Below the pieces are notes generated by a model. The model was not told the origin of the DNA and did no database searches. It was given only the letters and a program-made list of their open reading frames with translations. Shown here piece after piece: positions 7,172 through 14,722 of a stretch of 31,859 nt of DNA. How positions within the stretch are numbered: position 1 is the stretch's first letter; every line of letters starts with the position of its first letter. This DNA is from a virus. The stretch lies in IMG/VR virus record IMGVR_UViG_3300032083_000398, positions 1 to 31,859 of that record. One strand, written 5' to 3'. The position numbers and the translations under genes were made by a program.

Positions 7172-7187
7172 TGTTTCACGTGAAACA
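7172..7187. promoter_or_regulatory. parS: parS-type ParB binding site
   Basis: TGTTTCACGTGAAACA is a perfect 16-bp palindrome and equals the bacterial chromosomal parS consensus (TGTTNCACGTGAAACA, bound by ParB/Spo0J, as in Caulobacter and Bacillus). It is the only copy I found in the window. It lies 38 bases upstream of the chosen terminase start and about 25 bases downstream of the predicted transcription start. No parA or parB is visible. ParB loading by CTP-dependent clamping at this site is established for the consensus; its use by this phage is inference. Confidence 0.85.
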
Positions 7188-7703: not shown

Positions 7704-8138
7704 TTATGAAACGTCAATTGAGACGATAATATCGCCGTCGTTGATCATGTCCTTGATCGTATCGCGGGTTTCATTGTCCCGGTCAACGCTATCGGAAATG
7801 TGAGTTTCAACGATGGCATCAACGAAACTTTCAAGGCCGTCGATGTCGTCGGCTTCTACATTCAAATCATCTTTGAATTGCTCAAGGGCTTCAAGGCGGC
7901 TATCGGTCAAGGTGGCTTCGATGCGGCTATCAGTCAAGGCGGCTTTAATGCGGCCATTGATTGCGTCGTTAATAACGGCACCCAAATCAACCGGGGTTTT
8001 TTCCAAATTGGTTATATGATCGCGCAAGTTTTGAATATCCATAATTGCGGCGCGTATATCGCTTGCAAGTTGTGATGCGTCCGGCAAATTTGCCGCGCTG
8101 TTTTCTAAACGGTCAAGATTTGATTTAATGTAGATCAT
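7704..8138 (-). CDS. Acidic helical protein with internal repeat, unknown function
   Basis: A 144-aa acidic protein (MIYIKSNLDRLENSAANL...). It is predicted mostly helical with coiled-coil character. A short internal repeat reads KAALTDSRIEA and ATLTDSRLEA in the middle, visible in the DNA as near-identical 24-base units around 7903-7950. No cysteines, membrane segment or known domain were recognised. It starts after TTGGAGCAAAAAAC and a promoter-leader module shared almost exactly with the next gene upstream, and ends in the matching terminator, so it is an independent transcription unit. Asp-rich composition would allow a DNA-mimic or inhibitor role, but nothing specific shows this. Confidence 0.7.
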   Translation of the reverse strand: MIYIKSNLDRLENSAANLPDASQLASDIRAAIMDIQNLRDHITNLEKTPVDLGAVINDAINGRIKAALTDSRIEATLTDSRLEALEQFKDDLNVEADDIDGLESFVDAIVETHISDSVDRDNETRDTIKDMINDGDIIVSIDVS

Positions 8139-8227
8139 GTTTTTTGCTCCAACGGCGCGACGGAATGCCGGGCCTTGGGTATCTAATTATATATAAAATT
8201 ATATAAAGTAAAGTATTTCATTAAAAA
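8139..8227 (-). promoter_or_regulatory. Promoter-leader module copy 1
   Basis: Leftward, an AT-rich block beginning ACTTTACTTTATATAATTT holds two TATAAT hexamers; the distal one has TTTACT 15 bases upstream. It is followed by a CG-rich leader GGCCCGGCATTCCGTCGCGC and the ribosome binding site TTGGAG. Both blocks recur at 8720-8807 with only a few changes, while the eight bases between terminator and promoter differ. The conservation indicates selection or recent duplication of the expression module. Confidence 0.65.
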
Positions 8228-8247
8228 GGGCCGCTCAATGGCGGCCC
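8225..8247 (-). terminator. Intrinsic terminator, module copy 2
   Basis: Stem GGGCCGC/GCGGCCC (8228-8234 with 8241-8247), loop TCAATG, then TTTTT leftward. It ends the 148-aa gene and directly precedes the promoter of the 144-aa gene. Confidence 0.87.
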
Positions 8248-8272: not shown

Positions 8273-8719
8273 TTAATCAAACCGGGCAATATAATGAGTA
8301 GGTGACCACCTATATTTTGACGGGACTTTTTTATCTACAATCGCGCAAATCCCGTATTGGTAAACGTACAAAACAAACCGATCATCAAAAGAAAACCGGG
8401 CCAGCGGGTGTAAATCTGGATCGCCGGGATAAGAATAAACGCCGTTTGCCCCTAACGTACCTTTAAGAGGATATTGAGCAAACCCACCGTGACCGTAAAC
8501 GGCGTCCATTTTGTCGGCAATATCTAAAAGAGTAAGTTTGAGCGGGTCAACTTGCTGGGCTTCAAGGCAAGCCGTGCAAAAGAAATCCGGTATAATGCCG
8601 CAAGCTTCCACAAGGTGATCCGGGCGGGCGTTGCCTATTTCCGGGTCACGGTTTGGATTTAATACGCGATCAAGAATAAAATCACTAGCGCGAAAGTTTT
8701 CTGAAAAAATTTTTGTCAT
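8273..8719 (-). CDS. Conserved-looking phage protein of unknown function
   Basis: A 148-aa product starting MTKIFSENFRASDFILDRVL. It is mixed alpha/beta with several aromatic strands near the C-terminus (RFSFDDRFVLYVYQYGICAIVD). Cysteines are C40, a CTAC pair near 48-51 and one near 125; they are too few to argue for a metal site. A GYGGF-like turn (VYGHGGFAQYPLKG) is present. No transmembrane segment. The gene is a single-gene transcription unit with its own repeated promoter-leader (8720-8807) and terminator. I do not recognise the family. Base composition is CCGG-rich like its neighbours from about 7.3 to 11 kb and unlike the structural genes, which suggests separate acquisition. Confidence 0.7.
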   Translation of the reverse strand: MTKIFSENFRASDFILDRVLNPNRDPEIGNARPDHLVEACGIIPDFFCTACLEAQQVDPLKLTLLDIADKMDAVYGHGGFAQYPLKGTLGANGVYSYPGDPDLHPLARFSFDDRFVLYVYQYGICAIVDKKVPSKYRWSPTHYIARFD

Positions 8720-8807
8720 GTTTTTTGCTCCAATGGCGCGACGGAATGCCGGGCCTTGTTATCTAATTATATATAAAATTATATAAAGTAAAGTCCCCAA
8801 CGAAAAA
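8720..8807 (-). promoter_or_regulatory. Promoter-leader module copy 2
   Basis: Same arrangement as copy 1: an AT-rich block with two TATAAT hexamers, then the CG-rich leader GGCCCGGCATTCCGTCGCGC, then TTGGAGCAAAAAAC and ATG. Differences from copy 1 are confined to the spacer after the terminator, the 4-5 bases before AAGG and one base before the Shine-Dalgarno. Confidence 0.65.
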
Positions 8808-8827
8808 GGGCCGCGCAATGGCGGCCC
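8803..8827 (-). terminator. Intrinsic terminator, module copy 3
   Basis: Stem GGGCCGC/GCGGCCC (8808-8814 with 8821-8827), loop GCAATG, then TTTTT leftward. It ends the DUF932 gene. Confidence 0.87.
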
Positions 8828-10845: not shown

Positions 10846-11051
10846 GGTAATTTCATCCCTTTAATCTGGGAATATGTATTCCAATGCACTGCCCATAAAT
10901 CACGAAGCCCTTGCCCCGTATCTAAAACAATTGACTGGATACGTCCGCCCGTTAATGAAACGTTGTTATTAGCATATTGATAAGCTTGCGGCGCGTTTAA
11001 AAAGTCTTTTTTTAAAACGTGGCCATTGTTGAACTTAATTAATAATCTCAT
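10839..11051 (-). CDS. 70-aa protein, unknown
   Basis: I start at ATG 11051-11049 (MRLLIKFNNGHVLKKDFLNA) because GGGGGCAACC lies just upstream. An in-frame ATG 36 bases earlier has its purines almost touching the start. The 70-aa product has an alternating N-terminal strand, then a helix (APQAYQYANNNVSL) and another strand (RIQSIVLDTG). No recognised domain. It overlaps the Cys-rich gene by seven bases. A terminator ends upstream transcription 50 bases earlier (11101-11124), so a local promoter or read-through must supply it; an ATCGCATA motif (11081-11088) lies in that gap. Confidence 0.65.
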   Translation of the reverse strand: MRLLIKFNNGHVLKKDFLNAPQAYQYANNNVSLTGGRIQSIVLDTGQGLRDLWAVHWNTYSQIKGMKLPC

Positions 11052-11100
11052 GGTTGCCCCCATTGTTTGATATAAGATATATCGCATACCCTACAATATA

Positions 11101-13315: not shown

Positions 13316-13366
13316 AATGTTCTCCAGTTATTTCCAGATACTTTGCCTTAAAACTTCCCTTTTGTA

Positions 13367-13597
13367 TATATAGAGAAGCAAATATATTTTTTATAAAAAA
13401 ACTTTTTGAGGCCCATTATGCTGATTTGGACATTAGGCCCTCTGGCACTTATTCACATTATTGGCACATTTTTATTTTTAAATATGTGTCTTCATAACCC
13501 TATATATATAAACGACTTTTTGTCCAAAGACACACGGTTACACCGGACACACCTATTTTAACAAAAAATATTTTTTTTCTATTTGCTTCTCTATATA
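13367..13597. repeat. 18-bp perfect inverted repeat bounding an AT-rich gap
   Basis: TATATAGAGAAGCAAATA (13367-13384) and its exact complement TATTTGCTTCTCTATATA (13580-13597) face outward across 195 bases. The interval is AT-rich with homopolymer runs. It lies in the 13316-13638 gap between the small terminase and the terminator of the 147-aa gene, where no minus-strand gene is evident. It could be a pair of outward promoters, a replication origin or a protein binding array. Confidence 0.6.
13418..13561 (+). CDS. Possible 47-aa membrane peptide, opposite strand
   Basis: A plus-strand frame begins MLIWTLGPLALIHIIGTFLF and ends with a basic stretch (SKDTRLHRTHLF). A GAGG Shine-Dalgarno lies six bases before the ATG. 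The N-terminal 20 residues are hydrophobic enough for one membrane helix. It sits wholly inside the 18-bp inverted repeat and is the only plus-strand frame with a good ribosome binding site outside the SNF2 gene. The AT-rich DNA makes hydrophobic frames likely by chance, and no clear promoter is seen. Confidence 0.25.
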   Translation: MLIWTLGPLALIHIIGTFLFLNMCLHNPIYINDFLSKDTRLHRTHLF

Positions 13598-13638
13598 CAT
13601 AGAACCGTGTTTAATTGTGCCCCGGTCCGCGATCCACA

Positions 13639-13670
13639 TAAAAAAGCCCGCGATCCGTGAACCGCGGGCT
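13639..13670 (-). terminator. Intrinsic terminator
   Basis: Perfect 8-bp stem AGCCCGCG/CGCGGGCT (13645-13652 with 13663-13670), ten-base loop, followed by TTTTTT leftward. It ends the 147-aa gene eight bases after its stop. Confidence 0.9.
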
Positions 13671-13677
13671 ATGGTTA

Positions 13678-14121
13678 TTAAAGTTCTTCTTTATCGCTAT
13701 ACATTTTGTCGATAGCTTCTTGCTGTCGATCATCTGGCCCCATGTGGTTATCTTCGTGTTCTTTGCTCCACATTGTAATGTCTGCTAGGTTTGACTTCAT
13801 CCATTCTAGGCAGTCTTCGTGATCTTTGTTAAAGTCTCCTTTTTTAACGGGACGTATAGTGTTTTTTGTTACGGTAAATATTCCAATTGGCGTTGGTGGA
13901 TTATCCGCCTGCCAATTGTATCCCCCGTAGTCTGACACGTTTAAGTCCTCGCTTTTGCCATAGACCACGTAAATTGGTCTTTTTGTTCCACCGTCATGTT
14001 TAAAAGCATTTCTAATCGCGGTAATTGGATCAGTTGCTTTTGCCCATGTTCCGTATTGTCCGGCAGTTGATGCAAGAAAGGTGCATCCGTTTGGCAAGAT
14101 ATGATCTTGAGTATCACTCAT
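13678..14121 (-). CDS. 147-aa protein under a structured leader, unknown function
   Basis: I start at ATG 14121-14119 (MSDTQDHILPNGCTFLASTA) because GGAGAAAAAC precedes it; the longer frame adds nine residues without a better site. The product is an acidic mixed alpha/beta protein with PIYVVYGKSEDLNVSDYGG, PTPIGIFTVTKNTIR and a charged helical C-terminus (SKEHEDNHMGPDDRQQEA). No family recognised. It is a single-gene unit: a near-consensus promoter (14244-14272), a leader of about 115 bases with alternative hairpins, and a strong terminator. That amount of dedicated control for one small gene suggests regulated or high expression. Confidence 0.7.
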   Translation of the reverse strand: MSDTQDHILPNGCTFLASTAGQYGTWAKATDPITAIRNAFKHDGGTKRPIYVVYGKSEDLNVSDYGGYNWQADNPPTPIGIFTVTKNTIRPVKKGDFNKDHEDCLEWMKSNLADITMWSKEHEDNHMGPDDRQQEAIDKMYSDKEEL

Positions 14122-14238
14122 GTTTTTCTCCATAGTATGTAGAACCACCTTTCCAGTACCCTAGCACTGGCTGGTTAATTCGATGTCAAATAGCGTAGGG
14201 CTTGCCCGCCCTAATCGAAAAGGCTCATCCCCTTCGAT
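14122..14238 (-). promoter_or_regulatory. Structured leader RNA with mutually exclusive hairpins
   Basis: The leftward RNA begins with ATCGAA (14238-14233), which can pair with TTCGAT (14219-14214), with GG/CC extension. The same TTCGAT can instead pair with a second ATCGAA (14184-14179), enclosing a hairpin AGGGC/GCCCT. A third hairpin CCAGT/ACTGG lies closer to the gene. Two competing partners for one arm are the layout of a switch. I recognise no named riboswitch class. Confidence 0.45.
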
Positions 14239-14243
14239 AACTT

Positions 14244-14272
14244 ATATTAACATAAAATCCCATACATGTCAA
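14244..14272 (-). promoter_or_regulatory. Strong sigma70-type promoter
   Basis: Minus-strand TTGACA (14272-14267), 17-base spacer, TAATAT (14249-14244). The -35 is perfect. Predicted start is near 14237, placing the competing hairpins at the very 5' end of the transcript. Confidence 0.75.
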
Positions 14273-14302
14273 GAGTTAATTTTTAAGAAAGTTAAGTCAA
14301 AG

Positions 14303-14722
14303 TTACTTAGAACGTATCTTAGGCCGCAAACTTACAGTTAAATTTTTAGGCGGGTCATAAGAATAGAAGACGTGTTTACCGATTCGGACTATTCTATGAA
14401 GGGACTTTCTCCAAACAGGTCGCACCTTGGTCGTATGGTAATGGTCCGCGGACGTAGAGGGAAGGACGCTTGGGTCGTCCATAATTTCTTGAGCTAGGGT
14501 TTTAGAAATTTTCCACGCTTCTTCATCTTTAGGAACGGGCACCAATCCTTTTCGTACAAACGAGAACTGGCGTGGTTGCATAATTACGCCGCACATATCT
14601 GAGGGAAATTTTTTGGACTCCATGCGGTTGACGATTACTTTAGCCACCATCATTTGCCCGGTAGAGGGTTCGCCTCTTGCTTCGTGATACAAAGCAAGGG
14701 CCAAGCACATTTCTGCCAACAT
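14303..14722 (-). CDS. SleB-type cell wall hydrolase (candidate endolysin)
   Basis: A 139-aa protein matching the Hydrolase_2 (SleB) domain along its whole length. ALYHEARGEPSTGQMMVAKV carries the catalytic Glu (E14 in HEARGE), followed by VNRMESKKFPSDMCGVIMQ and RQFSFVRKG. The C-terminal part has ADHYHTTKVRPVWRKSL and IGKHVFY, as in the family. SleB domains cleave the peptidoglycan glycan strand as lytic transglycosylases. No signal peptide is visible, so export would need a holin. Shine-Dalgarno GGGAG precedes the ATG. It lies among small early genes rather than beside the holin-like gene, an odd placement for a lysin. Confidence 0.88.
   Translation of the reverse strand: MLAEMCLALALYHEARGEPSTGQMMVAKVIVNRMESKKFPSDMCGVIMQPRQFSFVRKGLVPVPKDEEAWKISKTLAQEIMDDPSVLPSTSADHYHTTKVRPVWRKSLHRIVRIGKHVFYSYDPPKNLTVSLRPKIRSK

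Follow-up and report, generated by a model that had tools for sequence, protein, structure and literature searches.

A conserved structured leader with a boxA-like element on an exchangeable phage gene cassette

What kind of control does a small phage gene receive from a leader that begins at a strong promoter and folds into successive hairpins before the ribosome site? The question is raised by a minus-strand locus in a virus record of 31,859 bases, given as one strand and called the window here (the whole stretch of DNA that was analysed), which comes from an uncultured, probably marine phage. The genes around the leader unit form a tailed-phage set, i.e., polA, primase, helicases, a cell-wall hydrolase, the terminase subunits and portal. 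An earlier note on this DNA had read the locus as a riboswitch- or thermosensor-like leader of a single-gene transcript. The promoter, the three short segments and the hairpins AGGGC/GCCCT and CCAGT/ACTGG that it listed before the ribosome site are all present on the minus strand, as is the one-gene unit, closed by a terminator after the gene (Table 1). The most informative element of the leader, a boxA, was absent from that note. The RNA start presumably lies near 14238, six bases past the -10 hexamer, and hairpins H1 and H2 stand back to back within the first 43 nt of the predicted RNA.

Table 1. Features of the leader and its cassette in the window
Feature	Position	Strand	Remarks
Removable cassette	13668..14303	-	both ends approximate; missing from L094 and L096 (alignment)
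Sigma70-type promoter TTGACA-17-TAATAT (10/12)	14244..14272	-	at least 9/12 in 41/47 scored leaders, window included
-35 TTGACA	14272-14267	-	followed by a 17-nt spacer
-10 TAATAT	14249-14244	-	
Operator-like TATGGGAT	14264-14257	-	in promoter spacer
Hairpin H1 (ATCGAAGGGG-ATGAG-CCTTTTCGAT)	14214..14238	-	predicted RNA 5' end; 97.2% of cells paired
Hairpin H2 (TAGGGC-GGGCAA-GCCCTA)	14196..14213	-	98.6% of cells paired; contains AGGGC/GCCCT
boxA GCTATTTGACA, putative NusB-S10 site	14184..14194	-	directly after H2; motif match
Hairpin H3 region	14143..14180	-	variable; contains CCAGT...ACTGG, 14170-14153
First segment ATCGAA	14238-14233	-	named in the earlier note
Middle segment TTCGAT	14219-14214	-	named in the earlier note
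Third segment ATCGAA	14184-14179	-	named in the earlier note
Shine-Dalgarno GGAG	14128..14131	-	
Cargo-gene start ATG	14121	-	
Cargo gene, 147 aa	13678..14121	-	no Pfam, NCBIfam or PADLOC match
Intrinsic terminator, 11 bp	13645..13670	-	closes the cassette

Structure and conservation of the leader

Relatives were gathered with a pattern spanning the end of H2 and the motif that follows it, which gave 10 stretches. More leader loci were supplied via related DNA polymerase or TerS genes, a covariance model then located the leader across those loci, and a second, pattern-based scan gave 55 stretches. A script counted 48 distinct leaders in all (IMG/VR and the window) that have both GGGCAA and a boxA-like motif. 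The structure-fitted alignment comprises 25 matches, 24 of them distinct, and leaves out copies that carry inserts, have cut ends or score weakly. In this alignment 97.8% of the cells were paired and 12 of the 15 base pairs had changed on both sides (6/9 in H1 and 6/6 in H2), and none of 500 shuffles was as good. The fitting to the structure biases the alignment in its favour; when the partners were slid by one column, pairing was 53-57%. The H2 loop GGGCAA was invariant in all 25 rows, and boxA was retained in 24 of them despite the divergence of the stems, the deviating row being L035.

The fold is significant for both the core (14238-14184, z = -2.78) and the leader (14238-14134, z = -3.13). 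A badly bounded stretch had folded at only z = -0.93, which is not significant, and it was the corrected 5' end that gave the significant fold. These values and the compensatory changes in relatives bear out the structured regulatory leader proposed in the earlier note, which is also right on the strong promoter and the one-gene transcript. In the predicted fold of the window H1, H2 and H3 are kept together and boxA is single-stranded. H3 is missing from some relatives; of the 46 leaders whose ribosome site is readable, 22 have a hairpin of at least 5 bp in the H3 region.

The leader is thus real, conserved and structured, and has no Rfam match: a search of the window and the leader against Rfam 15 gave nothing above chance. 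Two stretches of named phages, L174 from Phage DSL-LC04 and L175 from HTVC023P, gave no match to the leader model even at an E threshold of 1. In two whole MAGs with related phage contigs (Rhodobacteraceae and Verrucomicrobiales), nothing was found at E up to 0.001 and the sole match was a weak H2-like one in L176; binning makes host inference from these two MAGs weak. Among the open-licence PMC papers listed for boxA or antitermination (in phages generally, alphaproteobacteria, roseophages and marine phages), none has a title describing a leader of this kind in phages that are marine or infect alphaproteobacteria.

Hairpins with the H2 loop also occur outside the leader. Among loci collected before the pattern-based scan, hairpins of at least 5 bp with the loop GGGCAA were found at 92 distinct places, and at 64 of these the script's test detected no boxA. 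None of the 59 other permutations of the loop exceeded 14 places. Some of the GGGCAA hairpins lie in coding sequence, and many follow a promoter-like stretch and precede the ribosome site of another gene. When the set was enlarged, with loci fetched by the GGGCAA pattern included, 83 of 123 such hairpins preceded a ribosome site and ATG, whereas no other loop did so more than 8 times. H2 is thus one of a wider set of 5' hairpins in the phage group. A small GGGCAA hairpin, AATGGGGGCAACCATG, lies in the window at 11049-11064, just after an operator-like site and with its 3' arm reaching into a start codon, an arrangement shared by relatives. In L127, L113, L114 and L115, GGGCAA hairpins with stems of 11-13 bp are followed by a U-rich tract right before the ribosome site, which is attenuator-like.

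The boxA and its counterparts in rRNA leaders

The consensus boxA of gamma-proteobacteria is GYTCTTTAANA (Baniulyte et al., PMC5725501), and from this gamma-proteobacterial form GCTATTTGACA of the window departs at positions 4 and 8. The motif of the 48 distinct phage leaders is GYTMTTTRACA, and one relative, L071, carries GCTCTTTAACA. For the rRNA side, 16S loci were taken from genomes of the family and the class of the Rhodobacteraceae MAG whose bin has a related phage contig (genomes with a 16S match: 14/100 and 36/144), and the 400 nt upstream of 16S were searched. Of 16 distinct Rhodobacteraceae 16S leaders, 11 have GYTNTTTGACA exactly (0.03 expected) and all 16 have it within one mismatch (0.77 expected); in the class sample it was found exactly in 7 of 30 leaders (0.05 expected). 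The window boxA agrees with this boxA-like motif from rRNA leaders of the likely host group, and CTACGCTATTTGACATCG is identical in the window and one rRNA leader (L209). In E. coli a C4A change inactivates boxA (PMC5725501), and position 4 of the boxA in the window is likewise A. Rhodobacteraceae rRNA boxA shows A, C, G and T at this position, so the window's A is within the variation of the host group.

Hairpins upstream of the host rRNA boxA were not above chance (7/13 against 6.1 expected), and a host-like boxB at that place was dropped as a candidate on account of this count. The host rRNA upstream stretches compared contained no GGGCAA hairpin. By sequence identity the element after H2 is a boxA, and the leader is best filed as a variant of the boxA (Nus-factor) leaders with a putative NusB-S10 site.

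Outside this phage group, the full alphaproteobacterial boxA with its flank, GCTCTTTGACATTGTRAA, matched 32 viral contigs, against 18 for a permuted 18-mer. The raw contig count is a weak signal, and what counts is the context. Within 100 nt, a ribosome site and ATG were present at 19 of 28 unique places (1/13 for the permuted 18-mer), a hairpin of at least 5 bp lay upstream at 12/28 (1/13), and 9/28 were noncoding by an ORF test and stood before a ribosome site (0/13). Promoter-like sites were near 6/28 (2/13). A 16S start was flagged in none of the contexts inspected from the 32 stretches.

The removable cassette and the TerS gene

The cargo gene of the window gave, with a start four residues longer, one weak PHROG match (E 0.068). 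Met was found at the start used in the earlier note in 9/9 aligned homologues of the product, which makes the start at 14121 plausible; the upstream ATG at 14133 was dropped as the true start after this alignment. L004 is an exception, with ATA at the usual start. The protein has only three relatives in IMG/VR, the cargo region had no DNA or protein match in phage GenBank records, and the mean pLDDT of the structure model was 65.8. Behind the shared leader, 46 distinct proteins were found, which form nine clusters once one spurious entry is removed. In a PHROG scan of ten cargo sequences, five (L075, L089, L007, L241 and the window) had a match with E no higher than 0.1, each to a family of unknown function, and the other five had none.

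In two relatives, L094 and L096, the whole unit is missing, including one half of the terminator, and TerS is kept. On either side of the missing unit both agree almost fully with the window, at 97.8% for the hydrolase in each of them and at 100% for TerS over the best segment. The promoter-leader-gene-terminator unit is a moron-like presence-absence module with exchangeable content.

The leader is present at 21 of 80 TerS loci, in every case on the TerS strand and 589 to 2,590 nt upstream, one of the 21 (L112) being a weak H2-only match without boxA; among the TerS loci having at least 2,000 nt upstream, it is present at only 16/54 by hand tally. A strong terminator lies between the leader and TerS in 15 of the 21 loci. 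From the cassette terminator to TerS, one promoter-like site was found against 7.2 expected (12 segments of 16), and since sigma70-like sites are scarce there, sigma70 transcription of TerS would have to pass the terminator. Given the conserved TATATATA stretches in that spacer, a phage-specific promoter before TerS is possible. L094 and L096 keep TerS without the cassette, so the cassette is dispensable for late transcription; the idea that the leader is an antitermination switch of the late operon is weakened by these empty sites. Among the PHROG matches of the window proteins scanned, a part of the small ORFs of a partial genome included, there was no N-type arginine-rich antiterminator.

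The spacer upstream of TerS in the window (13340-13640) is conserved. Besides the TATATATA stretches it contains GTGTAACC-like repeats and an inverted repeat of 25 nt (13360-13384 / 13580-13604). It could possibly be an origin, a packaging site or a phage-specific promoter.

Possible functions of the leader

The interpretation that we hold with slightly better than even confidence is that the moron-like cassette has a Nus-factor (boxA) leader by which RNA polymerase is modified, probably for antitermination. The RNA would start at a strong promoter of host type, its first 43 nt fold as H1 and H2, and a boxA of the alphaproteobacterial rRNA type comes next. The emerging boxA would most likely be bound by host NusB-S10, giving a Nus-modified polymerase, and H2 with its GGGCAA loop could be a boxB-like docking site for a factor. 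The modified polymerase would withstand Rho and pausing along the cargo gene and may read through the cassette terminator toward TerS. Host Nus factors are the obvious partner because boxA is present, and antitermination fits the rRNA parallel and the few sigma70-like promoters between terminator and TerS. As the empty sites show that TerS can do without the leader, the leader is viewed as serving the cassette, possibly also by keeping the cassette terminator from silencing downstream genes. The cassette-free relatives, the tally of TerS loci with a leader and the A at position 4 of boxA speak against this interpretation, as do the lack of an N-like antiterminator among the window proteins scanned, the chance-level hairpins upstream of the host rRNA boxA and the contig count of the permuted 18-mer. 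More tentatively, and with a chance well short of even, the phages may have a distinct control system in which a phage or host factor reads the GGGCAA hairpin at the 5' ends of many of their transcripts. At one locus, on the exchangeable cassette, this hairpin would be fused to a boxA of host type, and incoming cargo would then bring its own polymerase-modifying signal without silencing the downstream packaging genes.

Four known systems come closest. The rRNA antitermination leader (boxB-boxA-boxC, Nus factors) is alike in its alphaproteobacterial boxA, the hairpin directly upstream and the promoter-proximal position; however, the phage leader precedes a single protein gene and has a phage-specific GGGCAA hairpin. 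At lambda pL the layout is promoter, boxA plus hairpin, small gene and terminator. The lambdoid nut sites (boxA-boxB, N protein) thus agree in these parts, whereas here the hairpin comes before boxA, its loop is GGGCAA and no N-like protein was recognised; with the boxA-boxB order reversed, the leader falls outside the lambdoid nut family. The suhB 5' UTR likewise has a boxA in an mRNA leader close to the ribosome site, but the phage cassette, the covarying hairpins and the exchangeable cargo are particular to the present case. HK022 putRNA can be likened by layout alone, i.e., two stem-loops at a phage transcript start; boxA is present here, and the passages on putRNA in PMC9378689 mention none.

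The switch proposed in the earlier note depended on a middle segment able to pair with either side. Its letters are indeed complementary to both neighbours in the window, but the downstream pairing is not kept in homologues, and neglect of the complementary segments by homologous leaders was the outcome named there as fatal. The third segment begins on the last base of boxA and is found in only 6/48 leaders (after boxA, TCGAA in 3/48 and TTGAA in 3/48). Pairing of at least 6 bp between the 3' arm of H1 and the 30 nt after boxA, counted without boxA's own last A, occurred in 19/45 leaders against 14.0 in shuffles. Furthermore, H1, H2 and H3 coexist in the predicted fold, Rfam gives no riboswitch match, and the same leader stands before nine unrelated protein clusters, a misfit with a ligand sensor of one pathway. 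A riboswitch or thermosensor with mutually exclusive pairings is therefore hardly credible.

The main rival of antitermination is repression of the suhB type, in which the Nus complex on boxA would block translation of the cargo and promote Rho termination, so that a potentially costly gene stays low until Nus factors are titrated in infection. Direct precedents exist in suhB, where boxA lies 6 nt from the S-D and repression survives 100-nt insertions, and in the ParE-like toxin gene of Citrobacter koseri, which is controlled in the suhB fashion (PMC5725501). The phage boxA stands right before a single gene, with 6 to 52 nt between it and the downstream GGAG in the 46 leaders where the site can be read. 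This spacing, however, varies (6, 13-14, 24, 27 or 52 nt), the promoter is strong, and the conserved hairpin pair is not needed by suhB repression as described in the relevant passages of PMC5725501. We regard this alternative as unlikely. It is quite improbable that H1 and H2 act alone on the polymerase or protect the mRNA 5' end, with boxA secondary. HK022 putRNA acts by itself on RNA polymerase, and two stem-loops immediately after a promoter recall putL (PMC9378689). The many GGGCAA hairpins without boxA, often before other genes, point the same way, but boxA is retained in all aligned rows except L035 while the stems diverge.

Control through boxA is known from rRNA operons, from lambdoid phages and from a small number of bacterial mRNAs; with a conserved leader of this type in uncultured phages, alphaproteobacterial phages would join the list. 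As the spelling of boxA follows the rRNA leader of the host group, it would give a host-matching signature. The natural series of leaders would suit asking whether an mRNA boxA promotes or represses expression, and the GGGCAA hairpin is a concrete and searchable RNA motif.

Other recurrent motifs were observed in the window and its relatives. A parS-like palindrome, TGTTTCACGTGAAACA, lies just upstream of the TerL gene (7172-7187). It is also found in leader or upstream regions of L005, L061, L085, L137, L140, L161, L239, L248 and others, between H1 and H2 in L005 and its relatives and inside H1 in L161. TGTTYCACGTGRAACA occurs at 22 unique places in the 1.87 Mb searched, where none of 40 shuffled palindromes occurs at all. 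An operator-like octamer, ATCSCATA/TATGSGAT, is located at or near promoters (window minus strand 16161, 16141, 15527, 14264, 12355, 12345, 11088 and 7208), with TATCGCATA or TATGCGATA in the promoter spacer of most relatives, and looks like a phage regulon. Finally, a promoter-terminator stretch is duplicated upstream of two neighbouring small genes (window 8135-8247 and 8716-8827), the copies being 84-98% identical.
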